In this document: piece by piece, positions 58,191 to 64,000 of the stretch
Position numbering within the stretch: position 1 is the first letter of the stretch
How the letters are laid out: every line of letters begins with the position of its first letter
Assembly (NCBI RefSeq): GCF_013364155.1
Contig: NZ_CP054916.1
Span: 1,797,001-1,861,000 of the forward strand
Length of the DNA: 64,000 nucleotides
Source of the DNA: Streptomyces sp. NA02950
GTDB lineage: Bacteria; Actinomycetota; Actinomycetes; Streptomycetales; Streptomycetaceae
Direction: 5' to 3'
The notes under the pieces: generated by a model
Seen by the model: only the letters and a program-made list of their open reading frames with translations
The model's database searches: none
Told to the model about the DNA's origin: nothing
Position numbers and translations under genes: made by a program

Positions 58191-58223
58191 TGAGGCCGGG
58201 CCGCCTGTGGCGGCCCGGCCTCA
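58191..58223. terminator. Orphan strong hairpin at the core/accessory boundary
   Basis: Perfect 15-bp arms TGAGGCCGGGCCGCC (58191-58205) and GGCGGCCCGGCCTCA (58209-58223) with a TGT loop. It sits between divergent genes, where no gene runs into it, so it looks like a terminator left behind after an insertion or deletion. Base composition drops to the right of it. Confidence 0.7.
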
Positions 58224-58227
58224 CGGG

Positions 58228-58662
58228 GTGGGCGACAAGGGGTCTGACTGGAATACGCACTACCGGCTGCGGGCCCTTCGGAACCTCCTCGGCACGCTTC
58301 CCGACCCCTCCGCTCCTTTGCCGAAGCCGAAACGAAAGCCCAAGACAAACAGGGCCAAGCGCCTCAAAGATGATCAGGTAGCAAAGCTCTGCCGGGCCTA
58401 CAAAGCTGGCACATCTCGGCGACAACTCGCTGAAGACTTCGGCATCGCTCCAAAGACAGTGACCGCCATCCTCAGGCGTCAGGGCGTCAAGACCCGTTGG
58501 CGCAAGCTTGCGGATACCGACGTGGACGAAGCCGAACGGCTATACGCGCAGGGCATGTCCCTCGCCAGAGTTGGTGAACGTCTCGGGGTCACCGACTGCG
58601 CCGTGCGCTACCAGCTCAGGAAGCGCGGCATCAGGATGCGCGACTCGCACGGCCGGGAGTAG
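58228..58662 (+). CDS. Small double helix-turn-helix protein
   Basis: About 144 residues from a GTG at 58228; the start is uncertain, because no good ribosome site is visible and the GTG at 58207 lies in the loop of a terminator hairpin. A Lys/Pro-rich stretch (PLPKPKRKPKTNRAKRLKDD) precedes two HTH-like segments: SRRQLAEDFGIAPKTVTAIL and SLARVGERLGVTDCAVRYQL. The layout resembles recombinase or transposase DNA-binding domains without a catalytic part, so it may be a regulator or a fragment of a mobile element. A strong terminator follows. Confidence 0.6.
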   Translation: MGDKGSDWNTHYRLRALRNLLGTLPDPSAPLPKPKRKPKTNRAKRLKDDQVAKLCRAYKAGTSRRQLAEDFGIAPKTVTAILRRQGVKTRWRKLADTDVDEAERLYAQGMSLARVGERLGVTDCAVRYQLRKRGIRMRDSHGRE

Positions 58663-58676
58663 CCGCCCTGAACCTC

Positions 58677-58718
58677 CAGATTGGCCCCACCTTTCGCATG
58701 ATCGGTGGGGCCAATCTG
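58677..58718. terminator. Terminator after the HTH gene
   Basis: Perfect 15-bp arms CAGATTGGCCCCACC (58677-58691) and GGTGGGGCCAATCTG (58704-58718) with a 12-base loop. Confidence 0.85.
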
Positions 58719-58791
58719 CGCTGGCCAACCAATCTTTAAGCTCTACCCGCTATAAATACCCACTGCCAACCAGTAAACGGAAGGAGGTTAA

Positions 58792-59160
58792 ATGACCGAG
58801 CAACCACCAGAAATGCAAGGACAGGAGCTAACGCCTGAAGACGCACGCAAGCCAGTAGTGTTCGCCGTCCGCATCGATCCCGTTCAACGGGAACAGATCG
58901 AAGGGCTGCGCGGTATAACCGGGCAAAGCGTCAACGATGTCGGAGTGGAAGCACTGGACGACTGGATTGCCAAGACACTCGCCGATGAGACCGTTCGCAA
59001 CAAGGCTATGGCTGAACTAGACGACGAGGAGAAAAGGCTCCAGGAACGACGTAACGCCATCGCGGGCATTCTCGGACAAGCAGTTACGGCAGCAGAAGCC
59101 ACTCCGGAGCAAACCGGCACTCAAAGCCGAAGACGCGGTAAGGCACAGCCCGGTTCGTAG
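58792..59160 (+). CDS. Ribbon-helix-helix-like protein with coiled coil
   Basis: A 122-residue protein with an ideal ribosome site AAGGAGG (58781-58787) before the ATG. A -10-like TATAAAT is at 58751. Residues 22-56 (VFAVRIDPVQREQIEGLRGI, then SVNDVGVEALDDWI) fit a ribbon-helix-helix strand plus two helices. The next part is a charged coiled coil (DDEEKRLQERRNAIAGIL). Such proteins are common regulators of plasmids and integrated elements. Its codon and base use is unlike the core genes. Confidence 0.7.
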   Translation: MTEQPPEMQGQELTPEDARKPVVFAVRIDPVQREQIEGLRGITGQSVNDVGVEALDDWIAKTLADETVRNKAMAELDDEEKRLQERRNAIAGILGQAVTAAEATPEQTGTQSRRRGKAQPGS

Positions 59161-59181
59161 GCGGTTACGCCCCATGACGCA

Positions 59182-59219
59182 AGAGCCCAGCAATCCTCAT
59201 GATTGCTGGGCTCTTTTTA
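59182..59219. terminator. Rho-independent terminator after the RHH-like gene
   Basis: Perfect 14-bp arms AGAGCCCAGCAATC and GATTGCTGGGCTCT with a five-base loop, followed by TTTTTAT. A T-rich tail of this kind is rare in the core part of the window. Confidence 0.93.
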
Positions 59220-59249: not shown

Positions 59250-60854
59250 TCATTCCGCCTGGTCTACATCCTCGACAGCAAGCCACTCGTTAAGACCCGT
59301 CAGCATCGCCAATGCGGACACAAAGAGCGCCTTAACGGCTGCCGGTCCTCGGAGGTCCCCGAACACCTTCGTGAGCATCTTCTCGTATTCCCTGCTCTTC
59401 CGGTGCGCCGTAGCCTTGGACCTAACCTCTTGCAGGTTGCGGAGAAACTGGACGTCTCGCTCAGCGTGCGGGTACCCGACCAACTTCAGCCAACGTTCGA
59501 GCTTTGAGATTCCCTTCTCGTTCTCGATCTTGTCTGGCAGCTGTGCCTGCACCTGCTTTTCATTGATCGCGTCAACGAAGAGCTGGGTCATGATTCGGAT
59601 GCTTGACTCGAACTCAGCTTGGGAGTCGTTCAGAGGAAGACGAAGACGCTGCAAGAGTCCAGCGTCCGCCTCCTCGGGCTTGCGGAAGAAATCCCATCCG
59701 TAACGCTCGTTCCATGCACGCCCAAACGTCACATAGTTAGACCTCACGAGCAGGTCTTCTGCCGTTGGCTCAGTAAACTGAGCGAAGAAGGCTCGACGGA
59801 TGAGCGTTTCGCTGGGACGACCATCTGCCGGAACGTTGAAGCTCCTCCAATAGTCACGCTCCTGGCGAGGCAGGTCACGACCGAGGTCACCAAGAAAGAC
59901 CATCACATGCTCTTCGGCACTGTTGTCGATCTGAACGCCCCACAGGGAAGCGCAACGAAGGCGGCCGTCGGACACTTCGTAAAGCTCGGGCTTGTCGTAG
60001 TACTTCTGCAAGACTTCCCGGCGGAAGAAGACCGGCGTCAGGTAGTGAGGCGCGTCCGGGTTAGCCCCGAAGTAGTTCGCCAGGGCTTCCGGGTTGCACG
60101 TATAGCGGACCTCATCACCATCATCATCGGTCCCAATGATGAACTCGGGGAAGTAAGTGTCTTCTTCCTCGTATGGCCAGATGCCACTTTTCTCGACAGG
60201 CGGCGACGACACTACTCGAGTGCCTAGGTAGCGAGTGAAGTCACGCCCCATGATGCCGTCACCCGAATACAGGCCGGCGCGCAGGTCATCAGTTGCCCAC
60301 TCGGCGTCATCGGGCACAGCAGTACCCTCTGCACCGTACCTAACCGAGTCAATGTAGAGAACAAGGTCGAGCTGCCGTGCAGCCTGGAACTGCCGCAGAA
60401 GCTTGGTCCGCACCTCCACCTTCTTGCCAGTGATCTTGACCGCGACTGAAGAGGTTCCGTCGTCATGCGGCTGCATGAACTGAGACGTCAAATCGTCCCA
60501 GTAGAGGTTGTGGTAAAGACGGAAATGCTGAGTCAGCTCAAGCGTTGACGGCACTACCCCGTAGTACTCACGGAGAAGAACCAACGGCTCAATGCCGTCT
60601 GGGGCCCCATCTTGGAAGTAGGTCGCTACGGGCTTACCGTTCTCATAGTGCTGTGAAAAACCGGGGCCGAAGTCACCCTTCGAGATGTCCCATCCCGGAT
60701 CACTCAGGATGCGCTCTCGTTTCGAGGGCAGCGCAAAGGCACAATAGATACCACCGTTGGCGTCGTCATCGTGCCAGCTGTCGCAAACGACCGTCCATGC
60801 ACCACGCTCAAGCGAGGTGAAGCGTTGTCTAACGTCTTCTTGTTGCAAGTCCAT
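59250..60854 (-). CDS. Large unknown protein with C-terminal HEPN-like motif
   Basis: A 534-residue protein that I do not recognise as a named family. The ATG at 60854 lies six bases after a consensus TATAAT, so the mRNA is probably leaderless and this start is well supported. The N-terminal 400 residues are mixed alpha/beta, with many aromatic and acidic residues and no P-loop or protease motif. The C-terminal ~130 residues are helical and contain LQEVRSKATAHRK (Arg about 478, His about 484), an R-x5-H motif with HEPN ribonuclease-like spacing and the typical preceding hydrophobic helix. A TIGR02391 protein, another HEPN relative, is encoded just upstream. Confidence 0.75.
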   Translation of the reverse strand: MDLQQEDVRQRFTSLERGAWTVVCDSWHDDDANGGIYCAFALPSKRERILSDPGWDISKGDFGPGFSQHYENGKPVATYFQDGAPDGIEPLVLLREYYGVVPSTLELTQHFRLYHNLYWDDLTSQFMQPHDDGTSSVAVKITGKKVEVRTKLLRQFQAARQLDLVLYIDSVRYGAEGTAVPDDAEWATDDLRAGLYSGDGIMGRDFTRYLGTRVVSSPPVEKSGIWPYEEEDTYFPEFIIGTDDDGDEVRYTCNPEALANYFGANPDAPHYLTPVFFRREVLQKYYDKPELYEVSDGRLRCASLWGVQIDNSAEEHVMVFLGDLGRDLPRQERDYWRSFNVPADGRPSETLIRRAFFAQFTEPTAEDLLVRSNYVTFGRAWNERYGWDFFRKPEEADAGLLQRLRLPLNDSQAEFESSIRIMTQLFVDAINEKQVQAQLPDKIENEKGISKLERWLKLVGYPHAERDVQFLRNLQEVRSKATAHRKSREYEKMLTKVFGDLRGPAAVKALFVSALAMLTGLNEWLAVEDVDQAE

Positions 60855-60860
60855 CAGAGC

Positions 60861-60890
60861 ATTATAAGCCGAATGCACACTAATGGACAA
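60861..60890 (-). promoter_or_regulatory. Promoter of the 534-residue gene, leaderless
   Basis: The minus strand carries TTGTCC (60885-60890), an 18-bp spacer and a perfect TATAAT (60861-60866). The ATG follows six bases later, so transcription should begin at or within one base of the A of the start codon. No Shine-Dalgarno sequence is possible. Confidence 0.78.
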
Positions 60891-60924
60891 CGCATTACCC
60901 GGGCGACCGCCCTGCTCACATCCG

Positions 60925-61620
60925 TCACGTGGTCAACCTGCGCTCGATCTTGTCCAGCATCCGCATGAGCAAGCTGGCGGTCATGACGGCTTCGGATGCC
61001 TCTGTGACGTCATCGAAAGACACTTCGCGGTGCCCGGAGGGGTTGCGGAGCACAGCGTAAGTCCCCTGGAAGAGCATCATGGTCCCAACGACTTCACCAG
61101 CGGGTGCAGCAGGGTCAGCAAGCGGTCCACCCTGCCGGAAAGCCTTCGTCATAAGGTCGGTGCCGAACACGTCGTCTCCGAAGCCGGCCAACTGACGCAC
61201 TCGAACCTCCACCGCCTTCATGGACACGAAGATGGCGTTCTCGTACTCGCCGATGAGGAACTGTCGTCGAGCCTTAGCCTCGATCAAAGGATGCAGGTTA
61301 TCTTGCAGACGGTTAACGCTACGCACCGTCTCGATACCCTGCTCCACAGCTTGATGTCCGCGGCGGGTCACGAAAACAGATTGCGGATTACTATCACCGG
61401 GCTTGCTTGCAAGCATCCCATGCGACAGCAGCCACTGCACCGCCTCGGCTACAGCCCTTGCCGGGTGAGTGCCCATCGCACGATACTTCTCGTCCGTGGT
61501 GTAGCTCAGGCAGTAGTTGTACGAGTTCCACGTGTTGGTTCGCACCATGTCTTCAAGGACATGCAGTGCCAGCTCATCGACAGGGAGCTCAAGGACATCT
61601 TGGGGGCTGAGATCGATCAT
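60925..61620 (-). CDS. TIGR02391 (Ymh) family HEPN-like protein
   Basis: A 231-residue protein. The ATG at 61620 follows a -10 element by seven bases (leaderless); a GTG at 61626 would overlap that element's downstream edge. The N-terminal half looks winged-helix-like (AVAEAVQWLLSHGMLASKP, VFVTRRGHQAVEQG). The C-terminal Ymh domain starts FLIGEYENAIFVSMKAVEVR and contains AVLRNPSGHREV, with Arg about 192 and His about 197 (R-N-x3-H, the HEPN RNase motif). Family members are often found in phage-defence contexts. It is encoded in the same direction as the 534-residue protein, 70 bp apart. Confidence 0.82.
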   Translation of the reverse strand: MIDLSPQDVLELPVDELALHVLEDMVRTNTWNSYNYCLSYTTDEKYRAMGTHPARAVAEAVQWLLSHGMLASKPGDSNPQSVFVTRRGHQAVEQGIETVRSVNRLQDNLHPLIEAKARRQFLIGEYENAIFVSMKAVEVRVRQLAGFGDDVFGTDLMTKAFRQGGPLADPAAPAGEVVGTMMLFQGTYAVLRNPSGHREVSFDDVTEASEAVMTASLLMRMLDKIERRLTT

Positions 61621-61627
61621 GCCCACA

Positions 61628-61656
61628 GATATACGCCGTCAAGCCGTGTCTGTAAA
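61628..61656 (-). promoter_or_regulatory. Promoter of the TIGR02391 gene, leaderless
   Basis: TTTACA (61651-61656), 17 bp, TATATC (61628-61633), then seven bases to the ATG at 61620. It has the same layout as the promoter of the neighbouring 534-residue gene. Confidence 0.7.
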
Positions 61657-61698: not shown

Positions 61699-63522
61699 CT
61701 ACTTAACCCGCGAGAACATATCGCTAATACCTGCGCCCGCACCTAAGTCAACAAGCTGTGAGGTCGTGAGCGAGTTACCGCCGCCCCAGTAGGTTTCGCG
61801 AATCTTGCCGTCTTGTGTGCCGGTGAAGACGTGTTGCACGTTGTCGGGTGTAATCGTGGCTGCTATGGCCGCTACAGGAGAGCCTGCATTGAGTAGTTCA
61901 CCAGTTGCCAAGTTGAACCCGCCGCCCCAGTAGGTTTCTTTCACGAGACCAGAGGCAGTGCCATTGTAGATGTGCCAGGTACCGTTATAGCGAGAGGCCA
62001 TGTCGGTTATCGTTGCACCAAGGTTAGCCATTTGCGCAGTAGTCAACGAATTGCCTCCGCCCCAGTAGGTCTCAAACGACTTACCATCTGCGGTGCTTGT
62101 CATGACGTGGTTCACGCCGTCGCCCGTGATACCCGAGTCAAGAGCCACAACCGCACTGCCAACATTGGCAATCTGGTAGGTAGTTAGCGTGTCGTTAGGA
62201 CCCCAGTAACTCTCGCGCACCTTGCCGTCAGCAGTGCCGGAATAGATGTGTTGGGTCGAGCCAGAGGTTATGTCGGTAGATATTGCTTCCACCGACGAGC
62301 CAGTGTTCGCAACCTGCCATGTAGTGAGCGCGTCATTGGGTCCCCAGTAGGTCTCGTTGATGCGGCCGTCTTGGGTGCCGGTATACACGTGCTGGGTGCC
62401 ATCAGAAGTGATCTGAGACGAGAGGGTGTTAATAGGTGAATTGAGGTCAGCGAGCTGGGAGGTCGTCAGAGCATTTCCAGCACCCCAGTAGGTCTCGTAT
62501 ATCTCACCGCCCTGGGTGCCGAAGTAGACGTGCTGTAAACCATTGCTGCCGATCTGGTTCGAGACGGCCGTAACCGGAGAGCTAACGCTAGCCAGCTGGC
62601 CTGTCGTGAGCGCGTTACCATATCCCCAGTAGGTCTCGTAGATTTTTCCGTTGGTCGTCCCTGTATAGACGTGCATCACGGGACAACCGTTATTTGCAGC
62701 CAGACCCGCTTTGGTCGGGCATGAGTCATTAGGGTCGGCCACACCGTCGCCGTCCGTGTCCGGCGGTGGTGGTGTTTCGGCGGGAGGTGCAGAGTTAATA
62801 GGATCGCCGACATCAATGAAGTGATCCCAGTAGCGGCCAGACGAGCGAATGAACTTCCCGGCTGAGCTCTTGCTACTGTACGCCTCATGCGTAAACAAGC
62901 CGTCACTGTTGTGGTTCATCTCAGCCACTTTTAACTTGATGACGCTACCGGCGTCGTTCTTGATTACGTCCGTCACGAAGCCGACATGACCCCACTGCCC
63001 ATAATCGCTTTGAGCAATGTCTCCCGGCTGAATATTGCTGGCATTACCAGCCTTGACGGCGTACCCATCGGCGGCTGCACCTTCGTCCCAAGTATTGGCG
63101 TTACCCCAGTCACCCCCAATCCGCACTCCCATGTATTTGTCTGTCCAGTACGCCGCGCCGTCAGTGCAGTTTCGATATCCATACTTGTAAGGGCTTAACT
63201 CTTCGTAAGCGTTGTAGACTCCGTTATGGTTTTCGTCAATCCACCAATCGAAGTTGGCTCGGTTGAGCTCCTTAGCTCCGGCATATGGATAGTCGTTCTC
63301 AAAGGGAATCTTTGCCGTGCTGTCTGCGTGCGCAACACTTGGGTTAATGGCATCCTCGGCGATGAAGGCGGCAGTGGTACTCCCAGCAATGAGGAGGCCA
63401 GAGGCCGCAACTCTGCCGAGCTTCATACATGCCGCACCTGCGTTGTCTCTCAGACGTTCTAAGAGACTTGGCTCTTCAATTTCAAGTTGTTCAAGGTTCT
63501 GTGGATGTAGCTCCGTGCTCAT
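61699..63522 (-). CDS. Secreted CHAP-domain protein with seven-repeat beta-propeller-like lectin domain
   Basis: A 607-residue exported protein. The ATG at 63522 is followed by an unusually long N-region and a signal peptide (hydrophobic SGLLIAGSTTAAFIA, likely cut after VAHA near residue 66). A CHAP amidase/peptidase domain covers about residues 75-238, with catalytic Cys119 in YRNCTDGAAYW and His179 in WGHVGFVTDV. A thrombospondin-3-like calcium stretch follows (DTDGDGVADPNDSCP). From residue 284 come seven repeats of about 47 residues, each with an H[VI]Y-G-T...ETYWG...LTT pattern, as in a seven-bladed propeller. The gene has a TTA codon (61744-61746), so BldA tRNA may be needed. Likely a cell-wall hydrolase with glycan-binding repeats. 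Confidence 0.85.
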   Translation of the reverse strand: MSTELHPQNLEQLEIEEPSLLERLRDNAGAACMKLGRVAASGLLIAGSTTAAFIAEDAINPSVAHADSTAKIPFENDYPYAGAKELNRANFDWWIDENHNGVYNAYEELSPYKYGYRNCTDGAAYWTDKYMGVRIGGDWGNANTWDEGAAADGYAVKAGNASNIQPGDIAQSDYGQWGHVGFVTDVIKNDAGSVIKLKVAEMNHNSDGLFTHEAYSSKSSAGKFIRSSGRYWDHFIDVGDPINSAPPAETPPPPDTDGDGVADPNDSCPTKAGLAANNGCPVMHVYTGTTNGKIYETYWGYGNALTTGQLASVSSPVTAVSNQIGSNGLQHVYFGTQGGEIYETYWGAGNALTTSQLADLNSPINTLSSQITSDGTQHVYTGTQDGRINETYWGPNDALTTWQVANTGSSVEAISTDITSGSTQHIYSGTADGKVRESYWGPNDTLTTYQIANVGSAVVALDSGITGDGVNHVMTSTADGKSFETYWGGGNSLTTAQMANLGATITDMASRYNGTWHIYNGTASGLVKETYWGGGFNLATGELLNAGSPVAAIAATITPDNVQHVFTGTQDGKIRETYWGGGNSLTTSQLVDLGAGAGISDMFSRVK

Positions 63523-63631: not shown

Positions 63632-64000
63632 CTAGTTCGACAGCTCCTCTAAGCTTTTTATGCCAGTCATGAGGGCATTATTTGCTGCGCCGACAGTCTC
63701 TTCGTCACTGGCACACAGGTACTTTGGAGTTCCTAGGTAGTAGTATTTGCCGTCCTTGGATGTGTAGATAGGACCACTGCCAACACCCTCAGAGGCATCT
63801 AAAGGCTGTGGACTTCTTACTAGAAGAACGCCAGTACCGCCAGATAAGCCAGAGCCATCTGACTGCTCTATAAAGTTACAACTGCTTCCGGGTAATGTGC
63901 TCAGACTGTCCACCTCAAAGGAGGCGGACTGCTGGTTTGCTGGGGAGTCGGTACGCAAACCGTACTTCACATCTCCGCGCATATTCTCGGGCAGCGGGAA
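63632..64000 (-). CDS. Partial CDS of unknown function at the window edge
   Basis: The reading frame is open from the window edge (first codons read FPLPENMRGDVKYGLRTD) to a stop at 63632, so the gene almost surely begins outside the window; the ATG at 63982 has no ribosome site. The 122 visible residues contain two Cys (GSSCNFIE and KYLCASDEE) and Gly/Ser-rich loops, compatible with a secreted or lipoprotein domain. No family was recognised. The 109-bp gap to the CHAP gene contains a small hairpin with the CHAP gene leader. Confidence 0.65.
   Translation of the reverse strand, partial: FPLPENMRGDVKYGLRTDSPANQQSASFEVDSLSTLPGSSCNFIEQSDGSGLSGGTGVLLVRSPQPLDASEGVGSGPIYTSKDGKYYYLGTPKYLCASDEETVGAANNALMTGIKSLEELSN

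Follow-up and report, generated by a model that had tools for sequence, protein, structure and literature searches.

Given that two adjacent genes of Streptomyces sp. NA02950 both encode proteins with motifs of the HEPN ribonuclease (RNase) type, the question raised by this locus is whether the pair acts jointly against phages or whether one gene suffices. Both lie in a stretch of 64,000 nucleotides (contig NZ_CP054916.1, positions 1,797,001 to 1,861,000; here called the window), on its minus strand and 70 nucleotides apart: a large gene for a 534-residue protein (59250..60854) and a gene for a 231-residue TIGR02391/Ymh HEPN protein (60925..61620). A preliminary description, made from the sequence alone, had proposed a two-component, RNA-targeting abortive-infection system. 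Our analysis points instead to the large gene as a stand-alone, self-contained anti-phage effector, which on balance we consider the best explanation of the locus, with the Ymh gene probably an independent passenger.

The 534-residue open reading frame (ORF) was confirmed, and its R-x5-H motif (R478-S-K-A-T-A-H484; 59403..59423, minus strand) lies about 50 residues before the end of the protein, not at its end as had been stated. Conservation singles this motif out. In an alignment of 23 divergent family members, with identity to the window's protein down to 21%, R478 and H484 are each present in 23/23 rows and count among 12 invariant columns. Each is also present in 100 of 101 close rows (the query plus 100 of the 120 relatives listed), one row being gapped at each position. 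Among these close rows the spacing between Arg and His is mostly five residues, also four and six, and the polar residue directly after the Arg is Ser in 99/101; in the alignment of divergent members, L052 has Asn there.

The predicted model of the large protein has a mean predicted local distance difference test score (pLDDT) of 91.7. Helices are predicted at residues 412-428, 432-437, 448-458, 464-483, 488-498 and 503-533, in agreement with a model of the domain alone, and helix 464-483 ends at the R-x5-H motif. In the predicted bundle the motif lies at the end of the third helix, the position described for HEPN domains (PMC3710099). When the whole model is compared with solved structures, HEPN chains (6m6u, 8xdj, 8yuf, 1wwp and 3o10) are the best rows for its C-terminal part; with the domain-only model, HEPN proteins, recognized by title or from their papers, make up 10 of the top 25 rows. 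The preliminary description had read this C terminus as HEPN and suggested structure prediction as the check; the prediction returned an HEPN-like bundle over about 150 residues (386-534; 59253..59699, minus strand) and placed the motif, as expected, at the end of a helix. We infer that this domain is an HEPN RNase, in which the conserved Arg and His would support RNA cleavage.

At the other end of the protein, the predicted fold of residues 1-219 (60198..60854, minus strand) matches residues 1855-2076 of Avs3, as solved in complex with the terminase of phage PhiV-1 (PDB 8dgc). No sequence similarity between Avs3 and the large protein was found; a sequence search of solved structures returned neither an HEPN nor an Avs3 chain, and a viral structure library gave nothing useful. 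Between these two parts lies an unmatched middle domain (residues 220-385; 59700..60197, minus strand), which is the most conserved part of the family: 25/166 of its columns are conserved at 90% or more, against 7/219 for residues 1-219 and 8/149 for the HEPN-like domain. Membership in the Avs (antiviral STAND) family was considered and rejected, the large protein having 534 residues, an HEPN-like effector and no Pfam match at E values up to 1, NTPase and nuclease models included, so that only the fold resembling the Avs3 C terminus is common to the two.

The large protein does indeed look uncharacterized, as the preliminary description had remarked. It matches no Pfam, NCBIfam or PADLOC model at E values up to 1 and no PHROG at E values up to 0.001. 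Over the 23 divergent members, Pfam was convincing only for recombinase parts (Resolvase, Recombinase) in single members, the next-best match being DUF6702 in one member (E = 0.0096). At title level, no published description of the family was found among the articles listed on HEPN/ApeA/phage defence, Avs3/terminase or TIGR02391, and the accession of its E. coli homologue, WP_052318713.1, does not appear in the main text of the DefensePredictor paper. The family itself is real, large and unnamed, and consists of stand-alone HEPN-like proteins whose N-terminal domain is Avs3-like. A search that scored 7,998 candidates retrieved at least 2,144 clusters with E no higher than 1e-3, and one started from a divergent member retrieved 1,071 clusters, which may overlap the former.

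Relatives were seen in Streptomyces, other Actinomycetota, Pseudomonas, Rhodococcus and E. coli, and their presence is patchy. Members occur in 5/392 Streptomyces genomes (in two of them merely as fragments or partial matches), 10/370 genomes of the taxonomic family, 6/394 of the class and 5/396 of the phylum (one marginal); these genome sets overlap, and each includes the window's own genome. Streptomyces sp. 13-12-16 has an orthologue of 95% identity, the sole locus found in a contig scan with a single query sequence. Two queries of the family against phage records gave no match at E 1e-5, and a pattern scan of IMG/VR gave one contig. In some other genomes and plasmids the large gene is broken or present only in part (L043, L044, L054 and L069). 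One member of 801 residues (P0103) carries an N-terminal serine resolvase (PF00239), either a real fusion or an effect of gene calling.

The relatives sit on mobile elements, some of them beside defence genes, a conclusion that the following contexts support. On a P. syringae plasmid the relative follows gmtY, VPA1269 and gmtX; trios of this type carry defence cargo. On a P. aeruginosa plasmid a CBASS-type SAVED gene is 0.6 kb away, followed at a greater distance by cyclase and E1-E2 genes (strong PADLOC matches). In L068 a type II methyltransferase and a gene that weakly matches SIR2 are close by, and in L047 the relative adjoins a protein that partly matches RT-Protease_XI. DUF4238 genes adjoin the large gene in L054, where it is a fragment, L057 and L097, and a one-protein DUF4238 system resists T7 (PMC9122126). 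The E. coli homologue resides in P2-like prophages, between baseplate V and a virion morphogenesis (tail completion) gene. Of 5,426 E. coli genomes, 11 have this gene, and ten of the 11 are OkiPb isolates obtained from bovine feces; in 1,667 of the 5,426 some portion of the query matches, chiefly the tail genes on either side. Two other E. coli strains carry different, unannotated genes in the same slot, with no Pfam or PADLOC match. The cos-side P2 hotspot of PMC9122126, flanked by gpA and gpQ, is a different site. As a variable one-gene position (L102 5363-8626, L103 1340-2269, L104 1436-2422), the slot is a candidate place for new defence genes.

The neighbour in the window is a known kind of HEPN gene. 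As the preliminary description had proposed, it encodes a TIGR02391/Ymh protein with an HEPN motif: it scores 82.5 bits with PF09509 (cut-off 25) and 61.3 bits with TIGR02391 (cut-off 39.45), and its motif, R192-N-P-S-G-H197 (61030..61047, minus strand), is conserved far beyond its surroundings, with N193, P194 and H197 in 22/22 rows and R192 in at least 90%. Ymh/PF09509 is an HEPN family that retains the R-x4-6-H motif (PMC3710099). A profile comparison of the HEPN domains of the two window proteins gave no match. In PADLOC the Ymh HEPN half resembles PD-Lambda-3_B (3.2e-6) and Aga_HEPN (3.5e-5), systems from which the locus differs in that the adjacent large protein has no PADLOC match. Assignment to PD-Lambda-3 was rejected, only the Ymh half matching component B and the large protein matching no model; the scan for component A covered these two proteins.

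The two genes part company elsewhere. A Ymh profile, which did detect the window's own gene, found none at 27 other large-family loci, some of them short or holding fragments only. Over one set of 392 Streptomyces genomes, 5 contain the large family and 21 contain Ymh relatives, and the two coincide only in the window's own genome. Because only about 0.2 chance overlaps would be expected outside that genome, these counts show no linkage; they do not show avoidance. In one genome (G011) the flank is shared (72% over window 58210-59100 and 75-79% over more of the flanking DNA) and a Ymh protein of 97% identity keeps its relative orientation; where the large gene would stand, the DNA gives no blastn match. 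Another (G337) has a close large orthologue without Ymh, the gene and its first upstream bases being 90.8% identical in DNA, with 340 bases of similar flanking DNA and a tyrosine integrase close by. The preliminary description had itself named a co-occurrence search as a test that could refute its two-component system, and in these loci and genomes no co-occurrence beyond the own genome appeared; that proposal is not upheld.

A separate promoter for each gene, near consensus and so placed that transcripts begin at the ATG, had also been claimed. For the large gene this stands up well: TTGTCC-18-TATAAT (60861..60890, minus strand) ends 6 nucleotides before the ATG, a leaderless arrangement. Promoter-like matches in 5 kb were not above chance (1, against 2.2 ± 1.4 expected). 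Position is more telling. TANNNT occurs exactly 6 nucleotides before a candidate start (-12 to -7) in 12/19 Actinomycetota loci (45 candidate starts), and in two further loci at 7 nucleotides, against a background of 112/29,216 start triplets in the same loci. These 12 loci are related to each other and are not 12 independent events; the upstream DNA of L040, L041 and L046 is, by eye, otherwise unlike that of the window. On these grounds a leaderless start is a good reading for the large gene. Large-gene loci of Pseudomonadota show TANNNT in 0/3 and purine-rich boxes instead. Before the Ymh gene, the promoter-like TTTACA-17-TATATC (61628..61656, minus strand) is weak: it lacks the final T and was missed by the promoter scan, and the 97%-identical orthologue keeps TTTACA and has TATATG. 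A leaderless start of this gene is accordingly a weak suggestion.

Motif conservation, predicted fold, mobile setting and the lack of a fixed partner in the loci examined are the computed elements of the mechanism that we propose. The C-terminal HEPN RNase, with R-x5-H as its active site, is expected to act as a dimer, and the N-terminal region, with its Avs3-like first 219 residues, would keep it inactive. A phage-made product would bind the N-terminal region and release the RNase, which would cut cell RNA, and growth would stop before phage release (abortive infection). The large gene would travel as mobile cargo with its own leaderless promoter and no need of a partner gene, and the Ymh HEPN gene would be a second cargo gene, moving independently. 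We favour a phage product as the trigger because of the Avs3-like fold. Tha gives the mechanism a precedent, since it is a tested one-protein HEPN defence with a C-terminal HEPN RNase activated by phage tail proteins (PMC11087260). Single-gene phage defence is probably the role of the family as a whole.

Several observations weigh against this explanation. Among ten hand-picked neighbours of the relatives, four gave a strong match, one a partial and two a weak one, and three none; in a second scan of ten genes (eight neighbours, likewise hand-picked, and two slot occupants) none matched. Chromosomal copies in L067 and L069 stand beside apparent translation genes. Streptomyces sp. NPDC058653 has both proteins, each on a contig of 207,325 bases, apparently one and the same. 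Among plasmids of S. longwoodensis, one record contains a fragment of the large gene and another a distant Ymh relative of 33% identity. Finally, because conservation peaks in the unassigned middle domain, a ligand of that domain is a serious rival to the N-terminal trigger.

According to this rival, a nucleotide second messenger or foreign nucleic acid is sensed, with residues 220-385 binding the ligand and the Avs3-like domain serving only as a scaffold. Besides the conservation and the barely tested fold of the middle domain, the copy near a CBASS cyclase is consistent with it. So is DS-11, a one-protein CBS-HEPN defence thought to bind an adenine derivative (PMC13092281), on account of which the sensor may also be a nucleotide-binding domain. 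Nothing direct speaks against such sensing, which we regard as a distinct possibility, if somewhat against the odds; it differs from a phage-product sensor in the trigger only, and the probabilities of the two overlap.

It is improbable that the large gene is instead part of a toxin-antitoxin or addiction module, in which an HEPN toxin, kept in check either from within, by its N-terminal domain, or by an antitoxin encoded elsewhere, would stabilize mobile elements. The location of relatives on plasmids and prophages and near integrases would suit this, as would the broken copies. However, chromosomal members exist, and clustering of 302 neighbouring ORFs around 22 loci (crude gene calls, ORFs under 80 residues left out) revealed no partner in more than 3 loci, the most frequent neighbours being integrase-type (3) and GntR-type (3, labelled by reading), besides a few pairs; this clustering is of limited sensitivity because it missed the DUF4238 neighbours. 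A phage-independent regulatory or RNA-processing enzyme, for which the copies near translation genes in L067 and L069 speak, is highly improbable in view of the patchy presence in Streptomyces and the class and of the mobile settings. Least probable of all is a two-component HEPN-HEPN module in which the two proteins would cooperate, for instance as a heterodimer or as sensor and effector: adjacency on one strand, intact motifs in both proteins and the strain that seems to have both genes on one contig favour it, but Ymh is missing from all 27 other large-gene loci, each gene is found without the other (G337, G011) and only the own genome of the 392 has both.

The low-GC (guanine plus cytosine) insertion described earlier is borne out. 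GC content, about 0.72 ahead of the drop, is 0.62 at 58-59 kb and 0.52-0.58 from there on; outside the window it recovers. On the far side of this island lie a serine integrase (PF00239/PF07508, phrog_95), a Replication-relaxation protein, a weak match to a type IV secretion system coupling protein and an MT-A70 methyltransferase. The 3' end of the integrase ORF (L038 4296-6120) overlaps a tRNA-Val gene, a second copy of which follows about 0.7 kb on. Judging from this layout, the island appears to be one integrative element. A terminator-like hairpin (59181..59215, plus strand) separates the flanking plus-strand gene from the cargo genes.

Further genes of the island were recorded in passing. 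On the minus strand at window 61699-63522 lies a gene for a 607-residue protein with a CHAP amidase domain (PF05257) and then a long run of WGGGNSLTT-type repeats; a similar-looking gene lies near the Ymh orthologue of G011 (L042 5353-7173). A gene for a 204-residue protein with a prepilin-like N terminus and no Pfam match (window 63632-64000, on into L037 10632-11246, minus strand) likewise has a similar-looking counterpart at L042 7391-8089. L037 11371-12609, in the same island, encodes a Methyltransf_33 protein (histidine-specific methyltransferase type) with a weakly MerR-like N terminus. Upstream of the Ymh orthologue in G011 lies a gene for 421 residues (L042 8159-9424) with a weak DUF5677 match, below the cut-off.

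Of known systems, Tha, from an S. aureus prophage, is the nearest tested precedent, as judged by architecture (PMC11087260). Both are single proteins with a C-terminal HEPN domain bearing an R/H motif and an N-terminal part without a known domain, and Tha is prophage-borne, as are some relatives of the large gene. Tha differs in its length (301 residues versus 534), in its R-x4-H motif (R-x5-H here) and in its antisense inhibitor, Ith. ApeA/HEPN_Apea proteins likewise fuse a mostly-beta N-terminal part of about 300 residues to a C-terminal HEPN domain (PMC3710099), and one relative (P0121) bears the UniRef name 'ApeA N-terminal domain-co...'. Assignment to ApeA through Pfam failed: neither ApeA_NTD nor HEPN_Apea is among the 10 Pfam families matching any of the 23 members (E up to 1). 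A search with PF18739 was silent in the own genome and equally in 14 controls, and so is uninformative. HepS, from the Gifsy-1 prophage of S. Typhimurium (PDB 9oij; 9oik bound to the lambda J tail tip), has a smaller chain and a weak Z score.

Here, then, is a family of at least 2,144 clusters, without a model match in the members scanned yet with a clear putative effector site, whose sensor-like end is predicted to share its fold with a solved phage-protein receptor. Tentatively, and as an idea that we think rather unlikely to hold, its members may be minimal pattern-recognition receptors: a stand-alone Avs3 C-terminal module joined through a conserved middle domain to an HEPN RNase, without any STAND ATPase, so that one 60-kDa protein would read a conserved phage packaging or structural protein and cut RNA. 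The large gene offers a single, easily cloned test of the Avs3 C-terminal module as a transferable sensor, and the residence of the E. coli homologue (WP_052318713.1) in P2-like prophages means that ordinary coliphages would do for testing the sensor idea. Conservation of the leaderless promoter also points to actinobacterial defence cargo being able to move as complete transcription units. If the receptor idea were true, Actinomycetota and Pseudomonadota would harbour a widespread, unnamed family of immune receptors, with the Avs3 module serving as a sensor cassette open to reuse.
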